NCBI GenBank assembly: GCA_020851465.1
Contig: JADZCR010000001.1
Coordinates: forward strand, 310,001-374,000
Direction of reading: 5' to 3'
Source of the DNA: Phycisphaeraceae bacterium
GTDB taxonomy: Bacteria; Planctomycetota; Phycisphaerae; Phycisphaerales; Phycisphaeraceae
DNA: 64,000 bases
The notes under the pieces are model-generated. The model saw nothing but the letters and a program-made list of their open reading frames with translations. It searched no databases and was not told where the DNA came from. Position 1 is the first letter of the stretch; every line of letters starts with the position of its first letter. This document shows, one piece after another, positions 4,417 to 60,223 of this stretch. The translations under genes and the position numbers were made by a program.

Positions 4417-4455
4417 AAATCCGAAATGCGGGACAGGCTCTTTTACGACAGCGAG

Positions 4456-4929
4456 TCAATCCTTTGTTCCCGATGATTGCCGCATGATGCACCGGCTGGT
4501 TCCTGCACACACATCGCATTCCTTCGCCTCGCCTGCCGCAAACGCCATGCAATGTTCCATCCGTGACTTGATGATCTCCGCGATCAACGGGTGCAGTCCC
4601 AGCGGCGCACCCACCAGGTAATCAATGCCGGGGTGCTTGGCGGCGGCTTCGGCGGTGAGACGGGGAATGTCCTCCTCCCAGTGTCGGCCGGGCAAAAGAA
4701 AATAAGGCATCACCACCACGCGCTGCGCACCGCGACTGACGCAGCGATCAAAAGCTGTCGCAATCGATGGCTCAGCCAGCTCCATGTGTGCCGGCTCGAC
4801 GATGCTGTGCTTATCCCTCACCCGGTTGCGGAACATCTCCACCAGCTCAAGCAGCATGTCGTTCGATGCCGCCTTGCGCGATCCATGATCGACGATGATG
4901 ATGCCGGTGATGTCGTTGGGCGATGACAT
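4456..4929 (-). CDS. CbiX/SirB-like sirohydrochlorin chelatase family protein with Cys-rich tail
   Basis: 157 aa, the length of a short single-domain CbiX. Motifs: IIIVDHGSRKAASN at residues about 10-23 (metal-binding His), VVMPYFLLPGRHWEEDIP, and GLHPLIAEII (second His). The family inserts Co2+ or Fe2+ into sirohydrochlorin-type tetrapyrroles. The last 30 residues hold four cysteines including CDVC, reminiscent of the metal or 4Fe-4S-binding tail of some CbiX proteins. No other cobalamin or siroheme genes are nearby, so the substrate is not fixed by context. Same strand as, and 47 bp upstream of, the dienelactone hydrolase gene. Confidence 0.8.
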   Translation of the reverse strand: MSSPNDITGIIIVDHGSRKAASNDMLLELVEMFRNRVRDKHSIVEPAHMELAEPSIATAFDRCVSRGAQRVVVMPYFLLPGRHWEEDIPRLTAEAAAKHPGIDYLVGAPLGLHPLIAEIIKSRMEHCMAFAAGEAKECDVCAGTSRCIMRQSSGTKD

Positions 4930-4975
4930 GCTGATTCAAACCCGCAGGTGATGCGGTTCCGGTGAAATCGCGAGT

Positions 4976-5812: not shown

Positions 5813-5895
5813 GGGAGTCTCCTTGGCTGATGAGCTGTTTATTTTACGCAGCTCGCCGACAGAGACACAGCAACTCCGCGATGATCAGCGGCGCA

Positions 5896-44613: not shown

Positions 44614-45090
44614 ATGAACCGCTACCGCAATGCTTCTGGTTTTACGCTTGTTGAAATTCTGATCGTCGTTGTGATCCTCGGCATTCTCGCCGCGATCGTC
44701 ATCCCGCAGTTCACCAGCGCCAGCGAAGCCGCCAAAGGCTCAAGCGTGGTGAGCCAGCTCCAGACGGTCCGCAGCCAGCTTGAGCTGTACAACGTGCAGC
44801 ACAACGGCACGTACCCAACGGTTGCTCAGCTCTGGGGCAACATGACCAGCATGACCAACGCTGCTGGTACGTCGGTGACTTCAGGCGGCGTCGGCCCCTA
44901 CCTTCAGCAGGCCCCGGGCAACGCCCTTGAAGGCGGCAGCTCCTCAGTCGTCAACTCGACCACGGGCACCGCAGCGGCGGGTGTGGGTTGGTTCTATAAC
45001 CCCACTACCGGCGCGATCAGGGCAGTCTGCTCGTCCGCCAAGGCTACTGAGCTGAGCCTCGACACGACCAACGACGTGGCGACGTACTAA
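44614..45090 (+). CDS. Major type IV pilin / pseudopilin
   Basis: 158 aa. A classic class III signal: MNRYRNASG cleaved before FTLVEILIVVVILGILAAIV (Gly-1, Phe+1, Glu+5), then a hydrophobic helix and a small C-terminal domain starting around QTVRSQLELYNVQHNGTYPT, which resembles GspG-type pseudopilins. The C-terminal part is Gly/Ala/Thr-rich. Substrate of a prepilin peptidase that is not in the window. First gene of the locus, followed by its own terminator, so it is probably made in excess over the downstream genes. Confidence 0.93.
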   Translation: MNRYRNASGFTLVEILIVVVILGILAAIVIPQFTSASEAAKGSSVVSQLQTVRSQLELYNVQHNGTYPTVAQLWGNMTSMTNAAGTSVTSGGVGPYLQQAPGNALEGGSSSVVNSTTGTAAAGVGWFYNPTTGAIRAVCSSAKATELSLDTTNDVATY

Positions 45091-45108
45091 GCTCTATCGG
45101 ACTACTAC

Positions 45109-45143
45109 GGTCGCCCCGGCTTGACGGTCGGGGCGACCTTTTT
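45109..45143 (+). terminator. Rho-independent terminator after the pilin gene
   Basis: Perfect 10-bp stem: GGTCGCCCCG (45109-45118) and CGGGGCGACC (45129-45138) around a 10-base loop, followed by TTTTT (45139-45143). It starts 18 bases after the pilin stop. Confidence 0.92.
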
Positions 45144-45210
45144 CTTTTCAGTCGCGTGGTGAAGTAACAACCGCTTGTTTAACGCGACGCGCCAGCCGGC
45201 TGAGGTGAAC

Positions 45211-45738
45211 ATGGAAACTCCAACACCATCGACACAGCGCCGCCGCGCCTCTCGTCTTCTGGAAGCGCTGATCGTTCTGATGATTCTTGGCGGCCTGAGC
45301 AGCCTGGTGTTGCCTCAGTTTTCAAGCGCAGCCCGCGTTTCGCAGGAGACCTCGCTGCGCGACGATCTGCGATATATCCGCACACAGATTCTTGTCTATC
45401 GAGCGCAACACGGCGGAACAGCGCCGGGCTATCCCGACGGTGATGCCACCCGTCCGCCAACGACCACAGACTTTGCCGCACAGATGACGCTCTTTACCGA
45501 CGCTCAGGGGCGGACATCCATCCAGAAAAGCGAGCAATTTTGCTTTGGTCCTTATCTGGAGCAATTGCCGGCAAATCCTGTGAATCACAGTGCCGCGATT
45601 CGTTTCATCGCATCCGAGGTTCCGTTCCCGATGGTTCCGGGCGGGAGTGAAGGCTGGTTTTATCAGCCCGCCACCGGCACATTTGCGCCGAATATTGAAG
45701 GCCGGGACGCAGTGGGTGAGCCGTACTTTCAATATTGA
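45211..45738 (+). CDS. Pilin-like protein with degenerate prepilin signal
   Basis: 175 aa from ATG 45211, which follows a strong GAGGTGA; an in-frame TTG at 45175 is not preferred. The N-terminus reads RRRASRLLEALIVLMILGGL: the hydrophobic helix and Glu+5 are kept, but Gly-1 is Ala and Phe+1 is Ser. The rest parallels the major pilin (RDDLRYIRTQILVYRAQHGG, FGPYLEQLPANPVN, GWFYQPATGTFAPN), so it is a paralogue. It may be processed poorly, or may stay uncleaved as a membrane protein. Lies after the terminator. Confidence 0.85.
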   Translation: METPTPSTQRRRASRLLEALIVLMILGGLSSLVLPQFSSAARVSQETSLRDDLRYIRTQILVYRAQHGGTAPGYPDGDATRPPTTTDFAAQMTLFTDAQGRTSIQKSEQFCFGPYLEQLPANPVNHSAAIRFIASEVPFPMVPGGSEGWFYQPATGTFAPNIEGRDAVGEPYFQY

Positions 45739-45854
45739 TCCTCACCACAGACTGCACAAGTCCTTTACGGCGGCAATCCTCAGCGTATTTCGGCGTGATT
45801 GAACTTATTTGCCTCCTGATTTTCACCGATGAGGGGAGAGAAAGGAGATTCCGC

Positions 45855-46154
45855 ATGCGATCTCTGCGCTATCTCAACACGATTCTGACCATTCTCGCGG
45901 TGCTGCTGGGTCTGGAAATCTGGACCACCTGGATGCGTCCCGGTGACAGCGGCCTGGCTTCACCAGCCGTTGCCGGAGCCGATACCCGCTCGACGGACCG
46001 TTCCACAGGCGGCATTCCCGATGCGGGAGCACAGCGCAAGGAAATGATCGATCTGCTCAAGCAACTCAACGTCCAGCAAGCGGACGTGGTGAAGGTGCTC
46101 AAGTCCGGCGAAGTGCGCGTGAAGCTCGAAGACGCGCCGAACGATAACAAGTAA
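45855..46154 (+). CDS. Small membrane-anchored protein of the pilus locus, unknown function
   Basis: 99 aa from ATG 45855 after a good AAGGAG site. One TM helix (about 7-26), then a polar stretch and a C-terminal helix GIPDAGAQRKEMIDLLKQLN followed by ADVVKVLKSGEVRVKLED. Orientation is most likely C-terminus outside. I do not recognise a named family, but the position between pilin-like genes suggests a locus-specific component. The frame extends upstream to 45735 without supporting features. Confidence 0.7.
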   Translation: MRSLRYLNTILTILAVLLGLEIWTTWMRPGDSGLASPAVAGADTRSTDRSTGGIPDAGAQRKEMIDLLKQLNVQQADVVKVLKSGEVRVKLEDAPNDNK

Positions 46155-46231
46155 GCGTTTCGACTTGCTTGAGATCGCGCTGGACGGAGGCGACGTTCCC
46201 TGGTCATCAACAATCCGGGGAAGGGGATGAA

Positions 46232-46804
46232 ATGCGACACGTTCAAGACAACCCGACGCCCAATCAGCATTCAGAGATGAATGGGATGCTGCGTCTGTCG
46301 GCGGGATACCGCCGTGCATTTACGCTCATCGAAGTGTTGTCGGTCGTGGTGATTCTCGGCATAGCCGGCGCGGTTGTGGTTCCGCAGATGCTCAGCCGAG
46401 GAAACCTCCAAATCCAGGCTGCCAGCCGGATCATCATCGCAGACCTGCTCTATGCGCAGAACGAAGCCATCACGCGCCAATCTGTCCGCCGTGTCGTCTT
46501 TGACACCGCAGCAAACAGCTACAAGTTGACGGACGGCAACGGTAACGTGCTGGCGGTGTCGTGGAAAAACGGAAGTGCCGCCAATTATGTCGTCAACTTT
46601 TCGGCAGATTCGCGCTTTGATGCGGTCACGCTGAAAACCGCCAGCTTCGGCGGTACGCAAACCATCGAGTTTGATCCGCTGGGAGCTCCCAATAACGGGG
46701 GCACGGTGGATTTGGTGACGGGATCCATAACTTACCGCATCTCAGTTGCCGCGTTTACAGGGCGGGTGACTGTCGCGCCGGTGACGGCGACCAATCAGCC
46801 GTGA
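46232..46804 (+). CDS. GspH-type pseudopilin
   Basis: 190 aa from ATG 46232 (GGGGATGA SD-like sequence just before); ATG 46277 would give a shorter leader. Prepilin motif YRRA|FTLIEVLSVVVILGIAG has Ala at -1 instead of Gly, a variant seen in planctomycete pilins. The C-terminal part (LLYAQNEAITRQSVRRVVFD) matches the GspH/FimT minor pseudopilins. It probably belongs to the tip or initiation complex. 16 bp upstream of pilM. Confidence 0.87.
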   Translation: MRHVQDNPTPNQHSEMNGMLRLSAGYRRAFTLIEVLSVVVILGIAGAVVVPQMLSRGNLQIQAASRIIIADLLYAQNEAITRQSVRRVVFDTAANSYKLTDGNGNVLAVSWKNGSAANYVVNFSADSRFDAVTLKTASFGGTQTIEFDPLGAPNNGGTVDLVTGSITYRISVAAFTGRVTVAPVTATNQP

Positions 46805-46820
46805 CAGGAGGCTAACGAAA

Positions 46821-47960
46821 GTGCGTTTACCTTTTATTCAGAGTGGTGTCTGCCCCATCGGACTTGATACCGGCACACACAGCATCAAGATGATGCAGCT
46901 CGAGCGTCGCGGCAGCTCCTTTGCCGTTCGTGCAGCCGGTTCACGCGCGCTGCCTTGCGATTTACCCAGCACCGCCTCGGAACGCTCGACGCTCTATGCG
47001 AATCTAATCAAGCAGATTCTCGCAGAAGGCGATTTCCAGGGCCGCCGGGTCGTGAGTTGTCTTCCGGCAACGTCGATTCAATACAAAAACCTACGGCTGC
47101 CACGCATGCCCTACGACGAGCTTCGTTCCGCTGTCGAGTGGGAGGCCGCGGATCGTTTGAAGATTGTCCCAGAATCGATGCAGGTGCAGTTTTTCGCAGC
47201 AGGCGAGGTGCGTCAGGGAGAGGAACAGCGAGAAGAAATCATAATGCTCGCTGCCACCCGTGATGCGATCAACGAACACGTGGACACTCTGGTCAAGAGC
47301 GATCTCAAACCAGTAGCGATTGACGCGGTGCCCGGAGCACTGGCCAGAACACTGGTGTTTCATAGCGATAACAACACAGATCAAGATGCGCCGCAGATGG
47401 CGCTGGACATCGGATCATCTTCCAGCAAGGTGCTGGTGGTGCGCCAGGGGCGCGTGGTGTTCTTCAAACTCATTGATATCGGCGGACGCAAACTCGACCA
47501 GACGGTGGCGCAAAATCTCAGCCTGCCCCTGGCGGATGCGGCAGATTTGCGGCGGCGTCTTCAGCGGAGCCCGAAGCCAGAGGACGGGAGCACCGCAGGC
47601 GAACAACTTTTTGGCTCCACAAGACGCGAGAGTCTCGAACGCGCGGTTTATGAATCACTCCGCGCCACAGCGAGTGAACTGGCTAAAGAAGTGTCACTTT
47701 GCCTCCGCTATTACAGCGTGACTTTCCGCGGCAAGAGGCCGGAGAAAGTGTTGCTGGTTGGCGGGGAAACCTATGAACCACAACTGGCGCGGGCACTGGC
47801 GGAAGGCATTGACCTGCCCGTCGAAGCGATCCGCCCCTTTGCGGGCGTGGACATATCGAAGGCGACCGAGCTGGACGCTGATGGGACCAATAGCGAGTGG
47901 GCCGTGGCTGTGGGGCTGTCGATGCGGCGCGAGGCCGCGGCTAAGCGGGGTGCCGCATGA
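46821..47960 (+). CDS. pilM: PilM-like actin-fold assembly ATPase
   Basis: 379 aa starting at GTG 46821 after AGGAGG. Actin-like nucleotide motifs CPIGLDTGTHSIKMMQLE near the N-terminus and ALDIGSSSSKVLVVRQG (about 195-211), with EKVLLVGGETYEPQLARALA near the end. PilM is the cytoplasmic clamp that binds the PilN tail and links the motor to the alignment complex. Its stop overlaps the next ATG by 4 bp. Confidence 0.93.
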   Translation: MRLPFIQSGVCPIGLDTGTHSIKMMQLERRGSSFAVRAAGSRALPCDLPSTASERSTLYANLIKQILAEGDFQGRRVVSCLPATSIQYKNLRLPRMPYDELRSAVEWEAADRLKIVPESMQVQFFAAGEVRQGEEQREEIIMLAATRDAINEHVDTLVKSDLKPVAIDAVPGALARTLVFHSDNNTDQDAPQMALDIGSSSSKVLVVRQGRVVFFKLIDIGGRKLDQTVAQNLSLPLADAADLRRRLQRSPKPEDGSTAGEQLFGSTRRESLERAVYESLRATASELAKEVSLCLRYYSVTFRGKRPEKVLLVGGETYEPQLARALAEGIDLPVEAIRPFAGVDISKATELDADGTNSEWAVAVGLSMRREAAAKRGAA

Positions 47961-48622
47961 ACGAGATTAACTTTTTACCTCAGGTGTTTATCGAACAGCA
48001 GACCCGCCACCACCGCGTACATCGCGAGCTGGTATGGGTAGCTGTGACCTTGCTTGCGATCGTGGGTTGGTACGCCAGCTCGCGAGGCAGCCTCGATAGT
48101 CTCGAAAGCTACGCCAACGCATTACGTGATGAAGCGGACGCGGTGCGAGATCAGGTGAGCGAGATGGAGAAGCTCAGGATTCAGCAGAAATCTCTGCTGC
48201 ATCAGGTCAAGATTCAACGCGAGCTGACTCAGCCGATCAACACTACGTCGGTTCTGGCCACGGTGGCGAAACTGATGTCGCCGTCGATGGCGTTAACCAG
48301 TCTGGAGCTTCAAGGCACACGACCGGTTCCAGCTCCCGCGCCGCCGAAGCTCAAGGAGGGAGAGGTTGCGCCGCCACCCAAGCCGGCCCAGCGGCAGATT
48401 CTCCGGCTTGAGTTCATCGGGCTTGCGCCGTCAGACGTTGAAATTGCCAATTTCGTAGGTCGGCTCAGCGATCATCAGCTTTTCAGCAACGTCAAGATGA
48501 TCTACAGCCGCGCTACGGTTGTTACCGAACTCCAGGCACGCGAGTTCCGCATTGAGCTCGAGGTGCCGCTGGACCGCGACTACAAGGTCGCTGAGAGCAA
48601 GGAGGTGGCTCTTGCGGATTGA
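47957..48622 (+). CDS. pilN: PilN-like inner-membrane assembly protein
   Basis: 221 aa. The short cytoplasmic N-terminus MNEINFLPQVFIEQQ is the PilM-binding INLLP-type motif; a TM helix follows (about 29-46), then a coiled coil (ALRDEADAVRDQVSEMEKLR) and a ferredoxin-like periplasmic domain. A Pro-rich insertion PVPAPAPPKLKEGEVAPPP interrupts that domain. Overlaps pilM by 4 bp and pilO by 11 bp. Confidence 0.9.
   Translation: MNEINFLPQVFIEQQTRHHRVHRELVWVAVTLLAIVGWYASSRGSLDSLESYANALRDEADAVRDQVSEMEKLRIQQKSLLHQVKIQRELTQPINTTSVLATVAKLMSPSMALTSLELQGTRPVPAPAPPKLKEGEVAPPPKPAQRQILRLEFIGLAPSDVEIANFVGRLSDHQLFSNVKMIYSRATVVTELQAREFRIELEVPLDRDYKVAESKEVALAD
48599..48605 (+). promoter_or_regulatory. Shine-Dalgarno deciding the pilO TTG start
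   Basis: AAGGAGG inside the end of pilN, 6 bases before TTG 48612. No ATG or GTG in the right frame is better placed. Confidence 0.75.
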
Positions 48623-49163
48623 GAAAGACCAGAAGCGCACGCTCGCCACGGTGGGCATCCTTGTCGCAGCATTTGTCGTGGGTCTGTGGCTGCCCCACCG
48701 ACTTCAGGAACGAAGGCTGCATCAGCAGATCAAAGCGGCGCAGAAACAGCTTGGCTTTGATCGCGCCAGCTCTCAGGGCCTGGGAAAGCTTGCCCGTGAC
48801 GTGATCGCATTGCGCGAAGTCACCGATCAATCGCAAAAGTATGTTCCGCAGGAGACAGAGCTGGCGCCGTTGCTGCGGCAATTGAGCACCAACCTGCAGA
48901 CGCTGGATACGTCGGATCAGGTTATGGAAACCGAGACGAGCACCACCGGGCAGGACTACTCGGTGATTCCGGTGACTCTGAAATTCAAGGGGTCCTTTCC
49001 CAGTGCTTTCGGATTTATCAAAAACATCGAGTCCATGCGTCGTCTGGTGCGCATCACGCGCCTGTACGCACGGACAGATGCTTCAAAGCCGGGGGAACCC
49101 CTGACGGTGGAGATCCAGATTTGCGCGTTTTCGTCTTCGTCTGAGGAGGCACCTACGCCATGA
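48612..49163 (+). CDS. pilO: PilO-like inner-membrane assembly protein
   Basis: 183 aa from TTG 48612. A cytoplasmic stub RIEKDQKRTL, one TM (about 13-29), a coiled coil (RRLHQQIKAAQKQLGFDRAS) and the PilO core YVPQETELAPLLRQLSTNLQ with YSVIPVTLKFKGSFPSAFGF. It pairs with PilN as the alignment complex. A frame extending upstream to 48519 would lie wholly within pilN and lacks an SD. Confidence 0.9.
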   Translation: MRIEKDQKRTLATVGILVAAFVVGLWLPHRLQERRLHQQIKAAQKQLGFDRASSQGLGKLARDVIALREVTDQSQKYVPQETELAPLLRQLSTNLQTLDTSDQVMETETSTTGQDYSVIPVTLKFKGSFPSAFGFIKNIESMRRLVRITRLYARTDASKPGEPLTVEIQICAFSSSSEEAPTP

Positions 49164-49708
49164 GTCCTGTGATCAAGAAGCTCGTCAATCAATTGACGGC
49201 AGACAAGAAAAAATTATCGATCATGCTCGCGCTGGTGATGGTGGGCATGCTGCTGTGGGGCCGACTGCTGCTCAAGCAGGTACCTCGGACAGCCGTGGCT
49301 AATCCGAGCGAATCGCTCAGCGCTCAGACCGATAAGGTGATCGAAGAAGCCCGAGAAATAGCCCGTAAAACCATCAACATCGACCTGCCATCAGCCCTTT
49401 CGCGCGATGTATTCACCTTGAATCCCGCGGGTTATGCCCGAATTGAGAAAGTTGAAGCAACGGTCACGCAGGTAGGAAAGTCGGACCCTAAACCGGCCGA
49501 TGAATCCGAGCAGGTCAGCGTCACGGTGCTCCGTGCCGCCAAAGGCCTGGTGCTCCAGACCACGATGCTTGGTGAAAATCCACGGGCCATGATTAACGGT
49601 CAGGTGTTAAAGCCGGGTGAAAAAATACGTGGTTTTGAGCTTAAACAAGTGAATTCGCGTGACGTGATCCTCGAAATGGAGGGGATCGAAGTTCGGTTGG
49701 AAATGTAA
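49160..49708 (+). CDS. PilP/GspC-like protein
   Basis: 182 aa. TM at about 20-36, then a periplasmic linker and a C-terminal beta domain (GENPRAMINGQVLKPGEKIR, then LKQVNSRDVILEMEGIEVRL) that looks like the homology region of PilP/GspC, which contacts the secretin N0 domain. No lipobox, unlike classical PilP, so a membrane anchor like GspC. ATG overlaps the pilO stop by 4 bp. Confidence 0.78.
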   Translation: MSPVIKKLVNQLTADKKKLSIMLALVMVGMLLWGRLLLKQVPRTAVANPSESLSAQTDKVIEEAREIARKTINIDLPSALSRDVFTLNPAGYARIEKVEATVTQVGKSDPKPADESEQVSVTVLRAAKGLVLQTTMLGENPRAMINGQVLKPGEKIRGFELKQVNSRDVILEMEGIEVRLEM

Positions 49709-49743
49709 ACCGTGAGGCCGGGCCAATGCCCAAGGAGACCGCT

Positions 49744-51789
49744 ATGGGTTTTTCAACGAAGCAGATTTTGTCGGCCGTTTTTTTTTGCTCGGTAGGGTTG
49801 GTTTATAGCAGCCCGGCAATTGGGGATGACCGTCCCGCAGCCAAGGAAGGCAGCAGCGCGGTTCAGCAGGACGCTACTCCTGCCCCTGCCGCGGACGCCG
49901 CCGAACAAACCAAACAGCCGCCTACGACCCAGCCATTGAGCCTTTTCGGCTCGGATTCGGACGCCAAATCCGCCGACCCGCAGAAGCTCCCAGAGGGGCA
50001 GACCGTCGCGGTCAGCTCGATCGGCCAGATTGATTTACACGTCAAAGACCTGGAATTGACGCAGGTGCTTCAGCTCCTCTCAATCCAGTCGCAGCGGAAC
50101 ATCGTCGCGACCAAAGGCGTGAGCGGATCGATCTCCGCCGATCTCTACGGTGTGGATTTTTATGAAGCACTGGACGCCATTCTGCACACCAACGGATTCG
50201 GCTACCGCGAGAAAGGCAACTTCATTTATGTGTACACCGCAGCCGAGATCAAGGCCATGCAGGACGCGGAGCGGAAGCTCACCAAGCGTCTGGTTCGGCT
50301 GAACTATCTGACTGCCGGTGACGCAGCGAAGTTTGTTACCCCCCTGCTTTCAGGTGCTGGCTCCATCACGGTCAGCGCGGAGTCAACGACAGGCTTTCAA
50401 GCGAGTGTCGCCGACGGCGGCGCCAACACCAATGCGCACGGCGACATGATGATTATTCGTGACTACGCGGAAAACGTGGACGACATCGCCAGCGTGATTA
50501 AGGAACTCGACGTCAAGCCCAAACAGGTCGAGGTCGAAGCGACCATTCTGCAAGCACGGCTTAATGAGGATAACGCCTTCGGCGTCGATCTAACCATCCT
50601 GGCCGATTTTGCTGCCAGCGAGTTCACTTCGCCGCTGACCGCGATTGATCAGTTGATCTCCGGCACCGGCCCCAGCGGCAGCGGTCAAGCGATCCAGACC
50701 ACCGTGGGTCAGACGGGTACGGGTGAGAGTGGTGCCCGCGTCGGCATTATCTCCAAGAACATCGCAGCGTTTGTGAAGGCTTTGGATTCGGTGACTGACA
50801 CCACCGTCCTGGCTACACCCAAGATTCTCGTGCTCAACCGCCAAAAAGCGGACATGCTCGTCGGTGAAAAACTGGGCTACCTCAGCACGACCACAACGGA
50901 TACCTCCGCGACGCAGACCGTCGAGTTTCTCGAAGTCGGTACTCAACTGACGCTGCGTCCGTTTATCAGTGACGACGGCTATGTGCGCCTGGAGCTGCGG
51001 CCGTCGATCTCTGACGGCGAGACCCGCACCGTGGGGTCTTCAGTCATTCCCAACGAAACGACCCAGGAGCTGACGACCAACGTGATGGTTCGCAGCGGTC
51101 AAACGGTCGTGCTCGGCGGACTCTTTAAGGAAGACACGACGGTTTCACGCCGCCAGGTTCCATACGTTGGTGATATCCCGATTCTCGGTGCGGCGTTCAA
51201 GGGTCAGGAAGACACGGTCACCCGTTCGGAAGTGATCTTCCTGGTGACGCCGACGATTGTGAAGGATGAGACGCTGGCGGAGGTTGGTGATCGCACCGCG
51301 GAGACGGTCGAGACACTGCGTCAAGGCTCGCGTTCGGGTCTTCTCCCCTTCTCGCGTACCAAGCTGACCGCAGCACACGTTCGCGATGCCCTCAAGTATC
51401 AGCAGGAAGGCAAACGTGACAAGGCATTGTGGGAAGCGGAGGTCGCGCTTTCTCTGGATGCGACCTGCATCGAAGCGATCCGCCTCAAGGAAGAATTGAC
51501 CGGCAAGCGCATCTACTGGCCGGACACCGGCATCATGCGTGAAACGGTTGAGGGTGTAATCAACAAACAGATCGAGAACAACCCCGCGCCTCACAGTGCA
51601 GCCCCGGCGACTCAGCCGGCGGACACCAGTGCGGTTCAGGCTCCCGCGACTCCCGCAGCAGTTCAGGCTGCGGCGATCCCCGCGGCGACTCCGGCTATCG
51701 ATCAGGCGCAACCGGAAGCGCCATCCAGCAATGCAACGGCTGTCGTAGATGAGAGAGCTGCCCTCGAAGCAGGCTCACCTACGGAATAA
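49744..51789 (+). CDS. pilQ: Secretin (PilQ/GspD family) with unusual C-terminus
   Basis: 681 aa from ATG 49744, placed 7 bases after AAGGAG. Signal peptide up to about SSPAIG; a low-complexity linker with PPTTQPLS; an STN/N0 domain (DLELTQVLQLLSIQSQRNIV); an N1-type domain; then the secretin domain with VLATPKILVLNRQKADMLVG, VRSGQTVVLGGLFKEDTTVS and VPYVGDIPILGAAFKG. Past the barrel is a TPR-like helical pair (VRDALKYQQEGKRDKALWEA) and an Ala/Pro-rich tail with PATQPAD in place of an S-domain. It forms the outer-membrane gate of the apparatus. Confidence 0.93.
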   Translation: MGFSTKQILSAVFFCSVGLVYSSPAIGDDRPAAKEGSSAVQQDATPAPAADAAEQTKQPPTTQPLSLFGSDSDAKSADPQKLPEGQTVAVSSIGQIDLHVKDLELTQVLQLLSIQSQRNIVATKGVSGSISADLYGVDFYEALDAILHTNGFGYREKGNFIYVYTAAEIKAMQDAERKLTKRLVRLNYLTAGDAAKFVTPLLSGAGSITVSAESTTGFQASVADGGANTNAHGDMMIIRDYAENVDDIASVIKELDVKPKQVEVEATILQARLNEDNAFGVDLTILADFAASEFTSPLTAIDQLISGTGPSGSGQAIQTTVGQTGTGESGARVGIISKNIAAFVKALDSVTDTTVLATPKILVLNRQKADMLVGEKLGYLSTTTTDTSATQTVEFLEVGTQLTLRPFISDDGYVRLELRPSISDGETRTVGSSVIPNETTQELTTNVMVRSGQTVVLGGLFKEDTTVSRRQVPYVGDIPILGAAFKGQEDTVTRSEVIFLVTPTIVKDETLAEVGDRTAETVETLRQGSRSGLLPFSRTKLTAAHVRDALKYQQEGKRDKALWEAEVALSLDATCIEAIRLKEELTGKRIYWPDTGIMRETVEGVINKQIENNPAPHSAAPATQPADTSAVQAPATPAAVQAAAIPAATPAIDQAQPEAPSSNATAVVDERAALEAGSPTE

Positions 51790-51868
51790 GCACTTTGCGA
51801 ATTAGTGGATTACGACTACTGGCATCGCGAGTTCCCGGGAGGGGATGAAGGACCAGGAGACGCAAGCG

Positions 51869-53083
51869 ATGAAGCTTACGACAAAAATGATTTTGAGCGG
51901 TCTCACGGCAGGCGTGGTGCTGCTGGGTACCGCTGGCTGCAACAGCAATCAGACCAAGAGCCACAAGGCCAAAGTCAATGCAGCAAACGCGCGCTGGATG
52001 AACCTACGCTCGACTCTGATGCTCCAGATGGCGCAGCAGCAGTTCGACACCGGTGATCTTGAACAAGCAGAACGGACAACGGCCGATGCGATCAGCATCG
52101 ATCCGAAAAATGGCCGCCTGCATGTATTGGCCGGCAGGATCGCCTTGGAGCGAAGCCAGCTTGAGCGCGCTTATCAGCGGTTACAGACTGCCAGCGAGTT
52201 GGATCCAAAGCTGGCGGAAGCACACTACTACCAAGGCATCGTGCTTCAGCGCTGGCAGCGTTTTGATGATGCGCTAGCTGCGTATCGTCAAGCCTATGAA
52301 CTTCAGGCGGATAATCCCGGCTACCTGCTGGCAATCAGCGAAATGCTTATTTCAACCGATAAGGTTGAGGAAGCTCGAGCTTTACTGACCGAAAAGGTTG
52401 CCTACTTCGACCAAAGCGCAGCCATTCGTGGTGCGCTGGGGCAGGTTTACCTCATACAAAATAAACCTGCTGAAGCGGCGGATTACTTCCGTCAGGCCTC
52501 ATTGCTGCGGCCGGATGATATGCAGTTGATTGAATCGCTGGCGCTGGCTCAGGTCGAAGCGGGTCAGAACCAGGCTGCGATCGCGAGCTTTGGCCGGCTG
52601 GCCAAAGACGAAAAGCGCGCGAATTCGAGACACGTGCTGTTCGCGCTTGCCGCCGCATATGAGCGAAACGATCAACCCGCCCAGGCGAAGGACATCTATC
52701 TCAAGCTCACCCGCCAGGACTCTGCTGACGCCGAGCCGTGGATCAAGCTGGGAGAAATCGCGTGGGCGCAGCAGGATACTGCGGGCACATTGCTGGCAGC
52801 GAATCGTGTAATCAACATCGCGCCTAAGCGATCCGAAGGTTATTTGCTGGCGGGATTGGTTTGGCAGAAGCGCGGCAATGTCGATGAGGCTCTGCGCAAT
52901 TTCGACCGAGCTGCAGAGCTGGCTCCGCAGAGCAACGATGCTGTGATTCTTCGCGGCATTACGCTTCAGCAGGCCGGCCGGACATCAGCCGCAGCGCAGG
53001 CCTACGCCGAAGCGCTCCGCCGCCGTCCGGACGATAGCCGCGCGCAGGAACTGCTTGCGAGCGTGCCTGAAGCGGATCGGTAA
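51869..53083 (+). CDS. TPR lipoprotein (PilF/PilW-like role)
   Basis: 404 aa from ATG 51869 (AGGAG 10 bases before); ATG 51845 is an alternative. Lipoprotein-like signal MKLTTKMILSGLTAGVVLLG then TAGC, an imperfect lipobox with T at -3. The mature part is ten or so tetratricopeptide repeats (e.g. AQQQFDTGDLEQAERTTADA, EAHYYQGIVLQRWQRFDDAL). TPR lipoproteins in pilus loci pilot the secretin to the outer membrane and help it assemble. It directly follows the secretin gene. Confidence 0.85.
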   Translation: MKLTTKMILSGLTAGVVLLGTAGCNSNQTKSHKAKVNAANARWMNLRSTLMLQMAQQQFDTGDLEQAERTTADAISIDPKNGRLHVLAGRIALERSQLERAYQRLQTASELDPKLAEAHYYQGIVLQRWQRFDDALAAYRQAYELQADNPGYLLAISEMLISTDKVEEARALLTEKVAYFDQSAAIRGALGQVYLIQNKPAEAADYFRQASLLRPDDMQLIESLALAQVEAGQNQAAIASFGRLAKDEKRANSRHVLFALAAAYERNDQPAQAKDIYLKLTRQDSADAEPWIKLGEIAWAQQDTAGTLLAANRVINIAPKRSEGYLLAGLVWQKRGNVDEALRNFDRAAELAPQSNDAVILRGITLQQAGRTSAAAQAYAEALRRRPDDSRAQELLASVPEADR

Positions 53084-53170
53084 ATCGAACAACAAGCAGT
53101 GCTCCTTTGCGCCGGAAACAGGGCCGACGCACGGATCGAGTGTGGTGGGCGGCTTGGAGTGGAGGCAGGA

Positions 53171-54622
53171 TTGTCGGTAACACGTTGGTCCAGTGCGATT
53201 GTCGGAACAGGCGCTGCCGGCTTGGTGGCGTCCTCCGGGTTCTATTTTCAGCCCATCCGATATAACGACACCTTTGCGGTTGCCCTGCTGGCAGGCATTG
53301 CCGTTGTGTCGGGATTGATCCTGGCACTGATTCACTGGCTCATGATCAGCAGGCTGGGGAGCGATCTCTCGCGCCTGACGACCCACGTGGAGGCGATCGG
53401 CAAACTTGATTCCCGTCCGCCGGCATATAAATCCAGCACCGATCTGAGTGAACTCGAAAAATCGATCGAACAGACGCTCGGAGGTCTGCGCAAGCGGATC
53501 GAGGCGCTCGTAAATCAGCGGCGCGAGCTTGAGGTACAGACGCGGATCGCGGAGGCGGAACGCCGACACGCGGAAGCGGTCCTTAACTCGATCACTGATG
53601 CGGTGGTTGTGACCGACGCCTTTAACGAAATCGCGCTGGCTAACGAATCTGCGGCACGGGTACTCAATTTCGATCTCGAGGGAGCGATACGCAAACCCAT
53701 TGATCGCATTGTGCACGATCCTCTGCTGGTCAATCTGATCAAGGACACCCGCGAAGGCGGCAACGCTGCCCTTCGCCGCCACGTCGAGCACCGTCTGGGT
53801 CGGAATGGTCATTCGGCGACGTATGACGTCACGCTTGCGTGTGTTACCGACAACAGCCGCACGGGGCCGGAAACAGCAGGCGTTGTTGCCATTCTCCGCG
53901 ATATCACCAGAGAGAAAGAAATCGCGGAAATGAAAAGCGACTTCGTTTCCAATGTTTCACACGAGCTGCGCACGCCGCTTTCATCCATCAAAGCCTATGT
54001 GGAGATGCTGGTGGATGGTGAAGCTCACGACGAAGCGACACGCGCGGAGTTTTACAACATCATCCAGGGCGAAGCGAATCGTCTTGGCCGCCTGATTGAC
54101 AACATCCTCAACATCAGCCGAATCGAATCCGGCGTGATCAAGGTCCAGCGCGAGCACGTTTCTTTGCCGGGCGTCATCAAGGATGTCATCGACGTGCTGC
54201 TGCCGCAAGCTCGTGCCAAGCAGATCGAACTGTTGGAGATTCCAACGCCGATCTTCTTCCAGGTCTTTGCGGATAAAGACATGATCTACCAGGCGGTGTT
54301 AAACCTGATCAGTAACTCGATCAAGTACACACCCAACGGCGGCAAGGTCAGCGTGTCAATCGTCGTGGATGAGCATAGCCGCACGGTCAACGTATCGGTG
54401 GCGGATAACGGCGTGGGTATCCCCGCCACTGACCTCCCGCATTTATTTGAAAAGTTCTACCGCGTGGCGGACCACAAAAAGATGGCCAAGGGAACCGGGC
54501 TGGGCCTGAACCTGGTCAAGCACATTATCGAGACCGTCCACGGCGGCAAAGTCAGCGTCACAAGTGAACTTGGTAAGGGCAGTACGTTCACGTTCAGCCT
54601 TCCAATGGCCGACAACGGATAA
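53171..54622 (+). CDS. Membrane sensor histidine kinase with PAS domain
   Basis: 483 aa from TTG 53171, which sits 5 bases after GGAGG; the frame extends to GTG 53099 with an unlikely Cys/Arg-rich lead. Two TM helices (about 6-27 and 36-60) frame a very small outside loop, then a HAMP-like/coiled-coil linker, a PAS domain (LNSITDAVVVTDAFNEIALA, about 138-250), HisKA with H264 in SNVSHELRTPLSS, and HATPase_c (N-box NLISNSIKYTP, DNGVGIP, GTGLGLNL). A PhoR-like layout. It is placed between the TPR lipoprotein and a receiver gene, hence likely part of pilus/secretion control. Confidence 0.93.
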   Translation: MSVTRWSSAIVGTGAAGLVASSGFYFQPIRYNDTFAVALLAGIAVVSGLILALIHWLMISRLGSDLSRLTTHVEAIGKLDSRPPAYKSSTDLSELEKSIEQTLGGLRKRIEALVNQRRELEVQTRIAEAERRHAEAVLNSITDAVVVTDAFNEIALANESAARVLNFDLEGAIRKPIDRIVHDPLLVNLIKDTREGGNAALRRHVEHRLGRNGHSATYDVTLACVTDNSRTGPETAGVVAILRDITREKEIAEMKSDFVSNVSHELRTPLSSIKAYVEMLVDGEAHDEATRAEFYNIIQGEANRLGRLIDNILNISRIESGVIKVQREHVSLPGVIKDVIDVLLPQARAKQIELLEIPTPIFFQVFADKDMIYQAVLNLISNSIKYTPNGGKVSVSIVVDEHSRTVNVSVADNGVGIPATDLPHLFEKFYRVADHKKMAKGTGLGLNLVKHIIETVHGGKVSVTSELGKGSTFTFSLPMADNG

Positions 54623-54672
54623 GGGGAAGTGCTTATCCCGGTTTGTATTCAGGCTCCGGTAAATTGCCGGAG
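54617..54672 (+). repeat. Two tandem stem-loops between kinase and receiver genes
   Basis: GGATAAG (54617-54623) pairs with CTTATCC (54632-54638) and contains the kinase stop codon; CTCCGG (54654-54659) pairs with CCGGAG (54667-54672). No T tract follows either, so they are not classical terminators; they could set relative mRNA levels within the operon. Confidence 0.6.
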
Positions 54673-54718
54673 ACGAACATTCAGACACGGATCAGTCACG
54701 GATCGGGGAGTGTGACTT

Positions 54719-55123
54719 ATGAGCGACAAAATCAAAATTCTCGTGGTGGATGATGAAGCTCACATCCTGCACGTGGTCAGCCTCAAGCTGCGCAATGCGG
54801 GCTACGACATCATCACGGCAGAAGACGGTGAGGAAGGCCTTGAATCTGCGATACAGAACAAGCCCGATCTGATCATCACGGATTATCAGATGCCGTTCAT
54901 GACCGGGTTGGAATTGTGTACCGCCTTGAAGGAAAACGAGGTGACCTGCGCGACACCCGCAATCATGCTCACCGCTAGAGGATTCAGTCTGGCACAGGAG
55001 CTTTTGGATAAGACCAACATTGCTGCGGTGTTGAGCAAGCCGTTCAGTCCTCGCGAAGTGTTGTCCAAGGTGGTGGAGCTTATCGGTGGAGATGTGCCCC
55101 AGGAGGCAAGTAATCCCTCGTGA
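54719..55123 (+). CDS. Single-domain response regulator
   Basis: 134 aa receiver domain only. ILVVDDEAHILHVVSLKL gives the acidic pocket, phospho-acceptor Asp is in LIITDYQMPFMTG (about residue 55), Thr in MLTARGF, and Lys in VLSKPFSPREV. No output domain. It is most likely the partner of the upstream kinase and may act on the HD-GYP or STAS protein or on the motor. The stop overlaps the next start (GTGA). Confidence 0.95.
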   Translation: MSDKIKILVVDDEAHILHVVSLKLRNAGYDIITAEDGEEGLESAIQNKPDLIITDYQMPFMTGLELCTALKENEVTCATPAIMLTARGFSLAQELLDKTNIAAVLSKPFSPREVLSKVVELIGGDVPQEASNPS

Positions 55124-56772
55124 CCCAGACAGCCGTACCCATCTCGCGTCCCGGATTATCCGACCGCTTGCGTGAGCGGTTTGATGGATTAGGGGTTGCG
55201 CTCGTCTCCTTCGAGGCTTCGGGCCGCGCTGTCTTTGCTGACAGGATGACCAGTCTTGAAAAGCTGGTGATTGAGGCCCCCGCCTTCGCCGCCGCTGTGC
55301 GGTTGAACTGGCCTGCGCTTTCCGAGACACAAGGCGGTGCGATTTCGATCTGGCCGGGCGTCTGGCTTGCCCCCCTGCCTGGACAGCGTCGCCGCCGGAT
55401 TGCCGCGGAGAAGTATCAATCACAGATTATCGCCGCGATTCTAATTGGAGGAGAGTTCCTCGAAACCGATCAGCTCCGTCTGGCTTGTGATAACGCGCGC
55501 CAGGATGTGCAGGCGACCCTCGCCCGTGTGGATCCGACACGACTTGTCAGTGCGTCGGAGGCTAATCGCCTGGCACTGACGCTTTCGTGGATGCAGAAAG
55601 ACTCACTCGAAATTGATCGTCGCTGCGGTGAGATTCAGTCCATGAGCACACAGCTCGGAGAAAGCTACGAGGAGCTCAGCCTTCTCTACAAACTTTCAAC
55701 GAGCATGACGGTCAACCAGGAGCCGCCGCAGTTTCTCACTGACTCTTGCGCTGAGCTTCAAGAAGTTCTGCGGCTGCGCTGGATGGCGCTGCTGCTGACG
55801 GATGATGATCCCCGGCTAAATGAGCTTTCGGGACAGGTGTTTACCGCGGGCCCCATTAAACTCTCGGCGGAGCAATGGTCCCCCGTTCGCCGCGAACTCC
55901 TCAAACTCAACGCTCACGACGGTGCCGCGATCATCATTGACGATACTGCGACGACTCAAATTCCTGAGCTGTCACAGATTGCCAGCCAGCTTCTGGTTGT
56001 CTTCATGCAGCGTGAAGACAAGACTTTTGGCGTGCTGATTGGCGGCGATAAGCTCGGCGGCGAGCACATCTCCAGCGTGGATTCGAAACTCTGTAGCTCG
56101 CTGGCGAACAGTCTCTCGATCTTCATCGAAAACCGGATGCTGTTTCAGGACATGGCGGCTATGTTCATGGGCACGCTGCACGCGCTGACCAGCTCAATCG
56201 ATGCCAAGGACCGATACACACGCGGTCACTCCGAGCGAGTCGCGCTGATGTCGCGTCAGCTTGCCTCAGCGGCAGGCCTCGACCATAACACGGTCGAGCG
56301 CGTTTACATCTCCGGCCTGGTTCATGACGTGGGCAAGATCGGCGTACCCGAGGCAGTGCTGACCAAGCCGGGCAAACTCACCGACGAGGAATTCGCCCTC
56401 ATCAAACTCCACCCCGAAATCGGCGCGCGCATCCTGCGCGACATACGCCAGATGCAGGACTTGATCCCGGGGGTACTGGCGCACCACGAACGGTGGGATG
56501 GTCGGGGATATCCAGCAAATCTCAAGGGCAACGATATTCCGTTATTTGGTCGGTTGATCTGCCTGGCCGACTCGTTCGACGCGATGAGCAGCAACCGTAC
56601 TTACCGGCAAGCATTGTCTCTCCAACAGGTGCTCGCCGAAATCAGTCGATGTGCCGGAGCGCAGTTTGATCCCGATCTTGCGCAGGTCTTTGTCAAACTC
56701 GATTTCACGGAGTTTCAGCAGATGCTTCGTGAACATCAGCGGCAGATTACTGGTCAGGAGATCGCAGCATGA
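55120..56772 (+). CDS. HD-GYP domain c-di-GMP phosphodiesterase with GAF-like domain
   Basis: 550 aa from GTG 55120. A poorly conserved N-terminal third, a GAF-like sensory domain (about 190-345, LLYKLSTSMTVNQEPPQFLT onward), then HD-GYP: GHSERVALMSRQLA, VHDVGKIGVPEAVLTKPGKL, HHERWDGRGYPANLKG and LADSFDAMSSNRTYR. All metal-binding residues and the GYP loop are there, so it should hydrolyse c-di-GMP. It is translationally coupled to the receiver gene and to the STAS gene (4-bp overlaps), suggesting one signalling unit in the pilus operon. Confidence 0.93.
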   Translation: MTQTAVPISRPGLSDRLRERFDGLGVALVSFEASGRAVFADRMTSLEKLVIEAPAFAAAVRLNWPALSETQGGAISIWPGVWLAPLPGQRRRRIAAEKYQSQIIAAILIGGEFLETDQLRLACDNARQDVQATLARVDPTRLVSASEANRLALTLSWMQKDSLEIDRRCGEIQSMSTQLGESYEELSLLYKLSTSMTVNQEPPQFLTDSCAELQEVLRLRWMALLLTDDDPRLNELSGQVFTAGPIKLSAEQWSPVRRELLKLNAHDGAAIIIDDTATTQIPELSQIASQLLVVFMQREDKTFGVLIGGDKLGGEHISSVDSKLCSSLANSLSIFIENRMLFQDMAAMFMGTLHALTSSIDAKDRYTRGHSERVALMSRQLASAAGLDHNTVERVYISGLVHDVGKIGVPEAVLTKPGKLTDEEFALIKLHPEIGARILRDIRQMQDLIPGVLAHHERWDGRGYPANLKGNDIPLFGRLICLADSFDAMSSNRTYRQALSLQQVLAEISRCAGAQFDPDLAQVFVKLDFTEFQQMLREHQRQITGQEIAA

Positions 56773-57104
56773 AACTCAGCCATGAAGACTATGACCAGCT
56801 CACGGTGATGCAGATCAAGGGCGATCTGAACGCGGACGCAACGGATGAGTTTCGGAAAGCGATCAACGCCCGCATCGACGCAAAAATCAGGGATTTTGTG
56901 TTTGATGTGGCGGAGATGGAGTTCGTCGATTCCAAGGGGCTCGAAGCACTTCTGTGGGCACAGGAGGTCTGCGGGGAAAAACTAGGCCAGGTCCGACTGG
57001 CGGCACCACGGGAAAACGTCGCCAAGATCCTGGAGATCACCCGCCTCAGCCCCCGATTCGACTGTCACGCGGACGTGGATGCAGCAATCAAGAGTCTCAG
57101 ATAA
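56769..57104 (+). CDS. STAS domain protein (anti-sigma factor antagonist-like)
   Basis: 111 aa single STAS domain. LTVMQIKGDLNADATDEFRK at the N-terminus and VAEMEFVDSKGLEALLWAQE with the phosphorylatable Ser (VDSKGLE) are typical of SpoIIAA/RsbV-like proteins, which switch by Ser phosphorylation from an HPK-like kinase. No RsbW-type kinase is next to it. It may couple to the HD-GYP protein or a distant anti-sigma factor. 16 bp before the ATPase gene. Confidence 0.9.
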   Translation: MKLSHEDYDQLTVMQIKGDLNADATDEFRKAINARIDAKIRDFVFDVAEMEFVDSKGLEALLWAQEVCGEKLGQVRLAAPRENVAKILEITRLSPRFDCHADVDAAIKSLR

Positions 57105-57120
57105 ACGATCCAGGTGAGAC

Positions 57121-58932
57121 ATGTTCAACCGAGGCACATCAATCAAGGCTCCTGACGACGGAACATCCGCCAGTGCGGGCGGGGCGTCCACGTCTGTGCG
57201 TTCCCGCAACGGGCACGCCGGCGAGGCCAAACCTGTTCGCGTAGGTGATCTGCTCGTGGAGCGAAAGGTCATCACCCCGGAGCAGCTTGCACAGGCGTTG
57301 GCGTCTCAGAAAGAACGCGGACACAAGAAACTGCTGGGCGAAGTCATCTGTGAGATGAAGTTCGCCACCGAGGAGCAGGTGTTGGAGGTACTCGCCGGTG
57401 CGTATGGCGTGCCATTCGCCCGCGTGTCTCCTAAGATCGCCGATCCAAAAGTTATCGAAATACTTCCTCGTGAAATGCTGGAAAAGCAGTGTGCGCTACC
57501 GCTGTTTGTTGTTAACGGCAAGCTCACGGTTGCGGTAAACGAACCAGCAAACGTCTTTCTTCTTGAGGAGATGGAGCGGGTATCGGGCTGTACGATCCAA
57601 GTCGTTGCCGCCACCGCTCGTGACATCCTGGCCACGCTTCAGTCCTACCTGCCGAACGCCAACGTCTTTGTTATTGATGAGATTGTTGACGATATTCAGT
57701 CACAGGACTTGACGCTTGTTGAGAAGGAAGTCACCGATCTAACAAACCTTGCTGACTCCGCGAGTCACTCGCCGGTTATCAAGCTGGTGAACTTTTTGAT
57801 TCACGGTGCGGTGCAGGACGGCGCCAGCGATATTCACATTGAGCCTGGTGATGGCGTGCTGCGGGTGCGGTTTCGAGTGGACGGGTCGATGTTTGAAAAA
57901 ATGAAACCGCCGCATCAAATGCAGCCCGCAGTGGTCAGCCGCATCAAAATCATGGCAGGATTGGATATATCCGAACGTCGTGTGCCGCAGGATGGCGGTA
58001 TCACGGTCATGCTCAACAAGCGGCCGGTGGATCTGCGCGTCTCGACCATGCCGGGAAAATTCGGCGAAAAAGTCGTGATGCGCATCATTGATAACCGCAA
58101 CACGCTGACGAGTCTGGAAAAAATCGGGTTTTCCTACACCATGCTCGAAAACTTCCGCCAAGTGCTGCACCAACCAAACGGTGTTGTGCTGGTGACGGGG
58201 CCGACAGGCAGCGGTAAGTCCACCACGCTGTACGGCATGCTCAATGAAATACTCGACGACTCACTCAACATTTGCACAGTTGAGGATCCTGTCGAATACA
58301 ACCTGCCGGGTGTCAACCAGTTCCAGGTGAACGAGAAGGCGGGCTTTACTTTTTCCGGTGCGCTGCGGGCACTGTTGCGTCAGGATCCCGACGTGATCAT
58401 GGTCGGTGAAATCCGCGACCAGGAAACGGCGAAGATTGCCACACAGGCGGCTCTGACGGGGCACCTTGTGCTCTCCACATTGCATACCAACGATGCCCCT
58501 AGTGCGATTACCCGACTCTTTAACATCGGCGTGGAACCCTATCTCGTTGCCGCATCGATTCGAGGGGTGCTGGCGCAACGGCTCCTCCGAAAAGTATGTT
58601 CCTCCTGCAAGGAAGCGATGGAAATTACGCCGCAGGTCCGTCGAACTCTCGACAAGATCACGGATGGGGCTGCTCCGATAGAGACGCTTTACAAAGGCGC
58701 GGGCTGCTCGAAGTGCAGAAATACGGGCTATGCGGGGCGCATTGGTGTGTTTGAGCTATTTACACCGGACGATGAAGTGCTGGACGCAGTCAGTCGCGGA
58801 GCGAGTCTTCAGGAAATACGCCGCCTCGCCCGCGCGGGGGGTTATGTCACGCTTCAACAGGACGGCATCGAAAAGCTCCGTGCGGGAATCACGACGGTCG
58901 AAGAACTTTTCAGCGCCACCTCAGTGGGGTGA
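57121..58932 (+). CDS. pilB: PilB/GspE-type assembly ATPase with MshEN-like N-domain
   Basis: 603 aa. N-terminal GspEII/MshEN-like domain (about 38-175): RVGDLLVERKVITPEQLAQA then LLGEVICEMKFATEEQVLEV, the paired pattern that binds c-di-GMP in MshE. Then the AAA core: Walker A GPTGSGKST (360-368), Asp box CTVEDPVEYNLPG, Walker B DPDVIMVGEIRDQETA, His box TGHLVLSTLHTNDAPSA, and a four-Cys zinc site (CSSC and CSKC). It powers pilus or pseudopilus extension. No PilT retraction ATPase follows. Confidence 0.95.
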   Translation: MFNRGTSIKAPDDGTSASAGGASTSVRSRNGHAGEAKPVRVGDLLVERKVITPEQLAQALASQKERGHKKLLGEVICEMKFATEEQVLEVLAGAYGVPFARVSPKIADPKVIEILPREMLEKQCALPLFVVNGKLTVAVNEPANVFLLEEMERVSGCTIQVVAATARDILATLQSYLPNANVFVIDEIVDDIQSQDLTLVEKEVTDLTNLADSASHSPVIKLVNFLIHGAVQDGASDIHIEPGDGVLRVRFRVDGSMFEKMKPPHQMQPAVVSRIKIMAGLDISERRVPQDGGITVMLNKRPVDLRVSTMPGKFGEKVVMRIIDNRNTLTSLEKIGFSYTMLENFRQVLHQPNGVVLVTGPTGSGKSTTLYGMLNEILDDSLNICTVEDPVEYNLPGVNQFQVNEKAGFTFSGALRALLRQDPDVIMVGEIRDQETAKIATQAALTGHLVLSTLHTNDAPSAITRLFNIGVEPYLVAASIRGVLAQRLLRKVCSSCKEAMEITPQVRRTLDKITDGAAPIETLYKGAGCSKCRNTGYAGRIGVFELFTPDDEVLDAVSRGASLQEIRRLARAGGYVTLQQDGIEKLRAGITTVEELFSATSVG

Positions 58933-58990
58933 GGTTACTTGCAAATAGGTTGGCGATTTCCCGTAGAGCCGACGCTCGGAAAGTAGAACC

Positions 58991-60223
58991 ATGGCACGAT
59001 ATACCTATCAAGCCCGTACGAATCACGGCGAACTGACCACCGGTTCGGTACAGGCGGCCTCTCTTGACGAGGCGGGACGCATCGTGCGCGGCGAGGGCAA
59101 GTTCATCGTCAAGCTCACCCTAGCTCCCGCCGACTCGTCTGCAAACGAGAACAGTACGACGAATACGTCGAAAGCCAAAGGAAAGATCAAGCGGGCAGAG
59201 GTGATTTTTTTCACCCACCAGATGTCGGTCATGATTCAGACGGGAGTACCTCTGTCTGAAGCACTCGACTGCGCGGCGCAGCAGGCTAACAACCCTGCGT
59301 TCCGGGCGGTACTTGATGATGTTGCCAAGCACGTACAGGGCGGCGGCGAGTTTTCTGCGGCTCTCCGAAAACACCCCAAGATATTTCCCAACGTCATGAT
59401 CAGCCTGATTCGCGCTAGCGAAATATCCGGCACGATGGGCACTATGCTCGAACGCATCTCCGGCTACCTGACCAAGGAGCAGGCCACCGCCAAACACATC
59501 AAGAGCGCACTGATGTATCCGTGCTTCATGATGACGATGGCAGTAGGCGTCACCATATTTCTGCTCGCTTTTGTGTTGCCGAAGTTTGCCAAGATTTACG
59601 AGTCACGAGGTGCGGCACTCCCGGCTCCGACACGGTTTCTGCTCGCCCTGAGCCACGGACTGGTCGCTTACTGGTGGATGTGGCTGGGCGGAGCGATTAT
59701 CCTCGGCGTCGGCGGTTACTTGTTCGTTAAAAGTTCCAAGGGGCGGCGGGTATTCGACTACCTCAAGCTCAATGCGCCGATTTTCAAACACCTTTTTACA
59801 GGTCTTTATGTAAGCCGTGCCTGTCGCACCATGGGCACGATGACGGCTGCGGGCGTTTCCATGCTCGACATGATCGGCATCGTCAAAGAAGTGACCAACA
59901 ACGTCTATTACCACGACCTGTGGGATAAGGTGGATGAACGGCTGCGCCAAGGCGCTCAACTATCCGAAACGCTGTTTTCCTCAACGCTGATTCCGCGCAG
60001 TGTCGCCCAGATGATTTTCAGCGGTGAGAAATCGGGTCGCCTCGGCGTCGTGTTGTCAAAGGTGGCGGAGTTTACGGAGGAAGAGTTTGATCGCGCGGTG
60101 AAGACGACGACACAATTCATCGAGCCGGTCATGGTGGGAGCGATGGGCCTGATCATCGGCTTCGTGGCCATCTCTCTGCTTTTGCCGATCTTCAGTGTTG
60201 GAAAAGTCGTCGCGGGCAAGTAA
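58991..60223 (+). CDS. pilC: PilC/GspF-type inner-membrane platform protein
   Basis: 410 aa. N-terminal YTYQARTNHGELTTGSVQAA, then two repeated T2SSF domains: FFTHQMSVMIQTGVPLSEAL / ... and YVSRACRTMGTMTAAGVSML / FSSTLIPRSVAQMIFSGEKSG. Three TM helices near residues 180-200, 218-240 and 378-400. It couples the ATPase to pilin insertion. Last gene of the pilus/secretion locus. Confidence 0.95.
   Translation: MARYTYQARTNHGELTTGSVQAASLDEAGRIVRGEGKFIVKLTLAPADSSANENSTTNTSKAKGKIKRAEVIFFTHQMSVMIQTGVPLSEALDCAAQQANNPAFRAVLDDVAKHVQGGGEFSAALRKHPKIFPNVMISLIRASEISGTMGTMLERISGYLTKEQATAKHIKSALMYPCFMMTMAVGVTIFLLAFVLPKFAKIYESRGAALPAPTRFLLALSHGLVAYWWMWLGGAIILGVGGYLFVKSSKGRRVFDYLKLNAPIFKHLFTGLYVSRACRTMGTMTAAGVSMLDMIGIVKEVTNNVYYHDLWDKVDERLRQGAQLSETLFSSTLIPRSVAQMIFSGEKSGRLGVVLSKVAEFTEEEFDRAVKTTTQFIEPVMVGAMGLIIGFVAISLLLPIFSVGKVVAGK

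Follow-up and report, generated by a model that had tools for sequence, protein, structure and literature searches.

The core of a type IV pilus-like locus in a Phycisphaeraceae bacterium is the pairing of a gene for a STAS-domain protein with pilB, the gene of the pilus extension ATPase. The locus lies at 44614-60223 of the stretch analysed here, called the window (64,000 nucleotides, G000:C1:310001-374000, from a genome of 3.4 Mb that is 95.5% complete), and holds 16 genes, all on the + strand, in the order pilin, pseudopilins, PilMNOPQ, TPR lipoprotein, histidine kinase, receiver, HD-GYP phosphodiesterase, STAS protein, PilB and PilC. The gene identities were taken from Pfam and NCBIfam profile matches, by which the one-direction pilus locus named gene by gene in an earlier sequence-only reading was confirmed. 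What is known of how pilus extension is controlled comes mostly from Proteobacteria (PilZ, FimX, MshEN, RpfG). In planctomycetes, the pilus motor appears to go together with a STAS protein throughout the phylum, many members adding a kinase, a receiver and a phosphodiesterase of cyclic di-GMP (c-di-GMP) alongside, and these small control genes, the STAS gene above all, probably tell the motor when pili are built. For Planctomycetota as a whole, we see an even chance that PilB has in the STAS protein a regulatory subunit of its own. This would be a new kind of pilus-motor cofactor, next to PilZ and FimX, with the receiver, phosphorylation of Ser55 or both as its switch.

The STAS-pilB pair in planctomycete genomes

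When a STAS profile was searched over 294 Planctomycetota genomes and the best match per genome was taken, 28 of the 30 best matches were found directly upstream of pilB and on the same strand. Among 72 pilB loci scored in a public genome collection, STAS adjoins pilB in 16 of the 23 from Planctomycetota versus 0 of the 49 others, part of which are without a named phylum. Moreover, a second planctomycete type of type IV pilus, with the order STAS-pilB-pilC-pilMNOP and a PilB about 42% identical to that of the window, has a STAS protein of its own; in some loci of this type the pair is preceded by kinase, receiver, HD-GYP and a degenerate GGDEF (L144, L148, L156, L163), in others by a kinase only. 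A kinase and a receiver, without HD-GYP, precede the pair in L220 and L225. An active GGDEF domain in the sister locus type was considered and rejected, its motif being degenerate, and apparent fusions of STAS to the receiver or to HD-GYP proved to be artefacts of open frames.

The STAS and PilB trees divide into the same two types, with a distance correlation of 0.77-0.83; each tree takes two label changes, and L105, having two STAS-pilB pairs, was entered with the weaker one. The Asp54-Ser55 pair of the STAS protein is invariant in 38/38 type-1 rows and in 15/15 rows of the mixed alignment. The phosphosite corresponds to the invariant serine itself, with SpoIIAA Ser58, TM1442 Ser59 and MlaB Thr52 as counterparts, and the residue following Asp-Ser was rejected for this role.

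Loci were collected from 61 genomes with the window PilB as unbiased anchor and their flanks fetched; 35 orthologous loci have both pilQ and pilB. Kinase, receiver, HD-GYP and STAS stand between the TPR gene and pilB in about 25 of them (the automated count of 26 includes L055, whose kinase is on the opposite strand at the locus edge), and in the remaining loci one or more of kinase, receiver and HD-GYP have been lost. With the rearranged, distant locus L081 set aside, STAS is present in every one of the other 34. The locus order is conserved across the family and the order, and HDGYP-STAS-pilB recurs elsewhere in the class, in a second family, where five genomes show it (G197, G212, G261, G309, G333), three of which also have the receiver within the fetched stretch (RR-HDGYP-STAS-pilB, RR being the receiver). 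Thus, the suggestion that the machine is particular to this lineage does not hold, as the arrangement is order-wide, extends to a second family and has a related version in the second pilus type. The outcome named beforehand as a refutation, signalling genes missing from close relatives or lying elsewhere in them, did not arise in this comparison. As for the "complete signalling module" of the sequence-only reading, it is present in the window, but its kinase, receiver and HD-GYP are each dispensable and only STAS is tied to the motor.

Loci that lost the motor

Five loci (L090, L091, L093, L094, L099) are without pilMNO, STAS, pilB and pilC, having retained pilin, secretin, TPR gene and HD-GYP, often together with the receiver. 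The PilQ tree places these losses as five separate events, of which well-supported branches force at least four, and one motor-less genome (G005) has a relative of the same genus with the full locus (G034). The loss of the motor takes STAS every time and HD-GYP never (5/5 loci), and this repeated co-loss indicates that STAS belongs with the motor. However, STAS lies beside pilB, so that one deletion could remove both; the argument relies on breaks having fallen repeatedly between HD-GYP and STAS, together with the phylum-wide pairing. The catalytic motifs of HD-GYP are intact in all five loci. The protein is of use there without a PilB of the locus, presumably because another motor of the genome stands in or because it has other targets. 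That the motor half was lost five times independently amounts to a natural experiment, and STAS and PilB are a concrete, testable pair of partners.

Between gspH and pilQ, four of these loci (L090, L091, L093, L099) carry a PilP-like stub of 86-98 residues, and L090 also a PilM fragment of 160 residues, which looks like an inner-membrane half in decay, or one whose place a platform encoded elsewhere has taken. Paralogous PilMNOP-PilB loci, with neither pilC nor STAS next to PilB, are present at G000:C6:783749 (L084) and in L098, and are possible platform donors for the motor-less systems. The opposite half is missing in L050, which has kinase, receiver, HD-GYP, STAS, pilB and pilC without the upstream genes from pilA to TPR, the control genes having stayed with the motor. 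A further half-locus variant (L102, L103; similar in L075 and L077) is without secretin and STAS; at 2146-5930 (-) of L102, an RpfC-like hybrid kinase and a true, RpfG-like REC-HD-GYP fusion are encoded divergently from pilA-pilMNOP-pilB-pilC, a second and separate connection between HD-GYP and this family of pili.

Gene content, transcription signals and machine class

The features of the locus, all on the + strand, are as follows.

44614..45090, +, pilA, GspG-like major pilin with class III signal SGFTLVE (PF07963 34.5 bits; TIGR01710 59 bits, under the cut-off)
45109..45138, +, terminator-like hairpin with a 13-bp stem and T tail, directly 3' of pilA
45175..45738, +, psp2, pilin-like by sequence, degenerate cleavage motif ASRLLE (no Pfam match; relatives in other loci)
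45735..46154, +, orf139, small protein of no known family with one apparent transmembrane stretch, conserved in the locus
46169..46804, +, GspH-type pseudopilin (PF12019, PF07963)
46821..47960, +, PilM (TIGR01175 134.7 bits, cut-off 133)
47957..48622, +, PilN (PF05137, above the cut-off)
48519..49163, +, PilO, mechanical open reading frame whose true start is uncertain and further downstream (PF04350)
49160..49708, +, PilP-like protein with C-terminal T2SSB-like domain (PF16537 26.2 bits, under the cut-off)
49726..51789, +, PilQ/GspD secretin (PF00263 145 bits)
51845..53083, +, TPR lipoprotein, PilW/Tgl-like (lipobox TAGC)
53099..54622, +, histidine kinase, PAS-HisKA-HATPase, phospho-acceptor His288
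54719..55123, +, single-domain receiver (PF00072; Asp55, Thr85, Lys107)
55120..56772, +, predicted GAF-HD-GYP phosphodiesterase, catalytic motifs all intact, closest solved fold 4MCW
56769..57104, +, STAS protein, candidate partner of PilB (PF01740 53.9 bits; Asp54-Ser55 invariant)
57121..58932, +, PilB extension ATPase with MshEN domain of c-di-GMP-binding type (PF00437 445.7 bits; PF05157 60 bits; NF053729 55.5 bits, cut-off 38)
58991..60223, +, PilC/GspF platform protein (PF00482 197.8 bits)

Regarding the pseudopilins, the GspH-type protein was recognised as such, whereas orf139, which most loci carry within their group of pilin genes, has no Pfam family and is not a recognisable pseudopilin. 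The overlaps reported between receiver, HD-GYP and STAS genes are exactly 4 bp each in the window and recur in relatives (receiver/HD-GYP in 22/34, HD-GYP/STAS in 22/36). A hairpin of the same type as that of the window is found 3' of pilA in 17 of 39 loci versus 8 of 3120 random segments, and in the same 39-locus scan no terminator-like hairpin follows kinase, receiver, HD-GYP, STAS or pilB. With a strong hairpin behind it, pilA probably does not just share a single long transcript with the other genes and, judging from the sequence, is probably over-expressed via partial termination, while the genes from the kinase to pilC look like one transcript. About 25 of 35 loci hold the control genes, with no terminator-like signal from receiver to pilB, which supports the earlier proposal that these genes form an integral unit of the pilus locus. 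A promoter scan was uninformative, giving fewer sites than shuffled sequence.

The locus qualifies for the type IV filament superfamily, comprising type IV pili and type II secretion systems, with PF00437, PF00482 and PF07963 all above cut-off, and its type IVa alignment complex has PilM, PilN, PilO and secretin above cut-off and the PilP-like protein below it. PilM exceeds its curated cut-off, while PilB (TIGR02538, 593.9 against 675.7), PilQ (TIGR02515, 225.9 against 284) and PilC (best at GspF, 327 against 424) score high but below the curated cut-offs for type IVa pili or type II secretion. The profiles thus point to a member of the type IV pilus superfamily with type IV pilus-type PilMNO and GspG/GspH-type pilins, or to a type II secretion-like short-pilus machine of the same superfamily. 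Like type II secretion systems, it has GspG/GspH-like pseudopilins, a secretin and GspE/F homologues; it differs from them in having separate PilM, PilN and PilO, and no GspC, GspK or GspL-type fused platform had a Pfam match among the locus genes. As noticed earlier, neither pilT nor a prepilin peptidase is present in the locus; PilT (TIGR01420 449.8 bits, cut-off 319) is encoded on contig C3 of the same genome together with two more PilB, and Peptidase_A24 matches are found on contigs C2 and C6. This PilT could serve the locus in trans.

Proposed control of PilB, rival explanations and known systems

We give even weight, for and against, to a scheme where the PilB extension motor of a type IVa-pilus-like machine is controlled locally by its own operon, through a phosphorelay, c-di-GMP hydrolysis and STAS as a docking cofactor. 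The membrane histidine kinase would probably phosphorylate the free receiver, whose Asp55, Thr85 and Lys107 are conserved in nearly all relatives, and the receiver would then act on the GAF-HD-GYP protein, the two resembling RpfG, a REC-HD-GYP fusion, divided into separate proteins. The HD-GYP protein carries the full catalytic pattern, H..HD..KIG..H..HHExxDGxGYP..D, at residues 370-487 (H370, H402-D403, H431, H455-H456, GYP, D484, D487), intact in nearly all of 45 such proteins. Its closest counterpart in fold and in sequence is 4MCW, a tri-metal GAF-HD-GYP enzyme that is active; the AlphaFold prediction was shallow (9 sequences), with residues 1-110 not resolved. The HD-GYP protein would lower locally the c-di-GMP made by GGDEF proteins encoded elsewhere, which are found in 61/61 genomes and number 5 in that of the window, and the MshEN domain of PilB would probably read this level. 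The STAS protein would dock on PilB and relay or gate the state of receiver and HD-GYP, similar to MlaB on the ATPase MlaF. What the sequences show is gene content, order, conservation, the pattern of co-loss and the intact catalytic and phospho-acceptor residues; we infer the phosphotransfer partners, the turnover and binding of c-di-GMP, the contact between STAS and PilB and the direction of the effect on the motor.

Several observations weigh against this scheme. The MshEN consensus has two 24-residue motifs, RLGxx..Q, with a 5-residue spacer. In the window PilB, motif I starts at residue 40 (RVGDLLVERKVITPEQLAQALASQ) and keeps the Gln, with Lys instead of the usual Gly at position 10, and motif II from residue 71 (LLGEVI...A) has its final Gln replaced by Ala, with a spacer of 7 residues, not 5, so that c-di-GMP binding by PilB may be weak or lost. 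A 7-residue spacer is also found in Geobacter PilB structures. In favour of the scheme, motif II of GSPII-B of PilF, a 6 nM c-di-GMP binder, likewise starts with Leu (PMC11731258). Also against it, no diguanylate cyclase is encoded in the locus, several loci retain STAS and PilB without kinase, receiver or HD-GYP, and an intact HD-GYP in five loci without their own PilB indicates that PilB is not its only target. The idea that HD-GYP serves its neighbouring PilB exclusively is weakened by the same loci.

These last observations would suit an explanation that we consider rather unlikely, namely that STAS alone acts on PilB, while kinase, receiver and HD-GYP sense the state of secretin or pilus and report elsewhere via global c-di-GMP, as in surface sensing by the pilus. 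Where the motor is lost, HD-GYP, often with the receiver, remains with the secretin and pilin genes, its catalytic residues intact, STAS leaves with the motor, and pilB-STAS persists where kinase, receiver or HD-GYP is missing; yet HD-GYP and STAS overlap by 4 bp in 22/36 loci, HD-GYP and the degenerate GGDEF precede STAS-pilB in the second pilus type too, and L050 holds kinase, receiver and HD-GYP with the motor, its secretin half missing. A relay by protein contact from kinase through receiver, HD-GYP and STAS onto PilB, without c-di-GMP chemistry, is improbable: the degenerate motif II of PilB, the degenerate GGDEF of the sister type, L220 and L225 lacking HD-GYP, and the Xanthomonas precedent of RpfG-GGDEF-PilZ onto PilT/PilU (PMC3749722) are consistent with it, but a mere scaffold would not need the catalytic residues that nearly all 45 HD-GYP proteins keep. 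It is most improbable that the operon merely carries STAS as a hitch-hiker, an anti-sigma-antagonist or stressosome-type regulator of the usual kind, with a gene order irrelevant to the motor. The protein does have STAS_2/SpoIIAA-type similarity and keeps the canonical phospho-serine; against this stand the phylum-wide association of its gene with pilB, seen in two kinds of machine, the co-divergence of STAS and PilB and their joint loss, and no SpoIIAB-like anti-sigma kinase or sigma factor is encoded in the locus according to Pfam.

The proposed local control of PilB by its operon has parts in common with several known systems. With SpoIIAA/RsbV, the STAS protein shares the fold and the Asp-Ser phosphosite (Ser55), differing in its pairing with pilB in place of an anti-sigma kinase or sigma factor. 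As in MshE of the MSHA pilus of Vibrio cholerae, Myxococcus PilB and Thermus PilF, PilB carries an MshEN domain with motif I near the consensus; here, motif II lacks the final Gln, the spacer is 7, and a phosphodiesterase gene belongs to the same run. In Xanthomonas, RpfC/RpfG control pili by protein contact via GGDEF and PilZ proteins onto PilT/U (PMC3749722), a kinase, REC and HD-GYP being tied to a pilus motor as in the window. However, receiver and HD-GYP are here two overlapping genes and not the single REC-HD-GYP polypeptide of RpfG, a fusion present in L102, STAS takes the position of PilZ, and the adjacent motor is PilB, not PilT. MlaB is a STAS protein acting on the ATPase MlaF (PMC7367683), likewise a single-domain STAS paired with an ATPase and with a conserved Ser/Thr after Asp, but PilB is a hexameric ATPase of the secretion superfamily, MlaF is an ABC ATPase, and the contact with PilB is a predicted one. 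The locus is a member of neither the RpfC/RpfG nor the MlaB-MlaF system. No description of STAS as a partner of PilB, or of this arrangement, including Planctomycetes type IV pili with HD-GYP, was found in the open-licence PMC papers searched. The parts resemble known pilus control, and what is new is the phylum-wide STAS-PilB pairing with recurrent c-di-GMP and phosphorelay genes, rather than a lineage-specific secretion machine.

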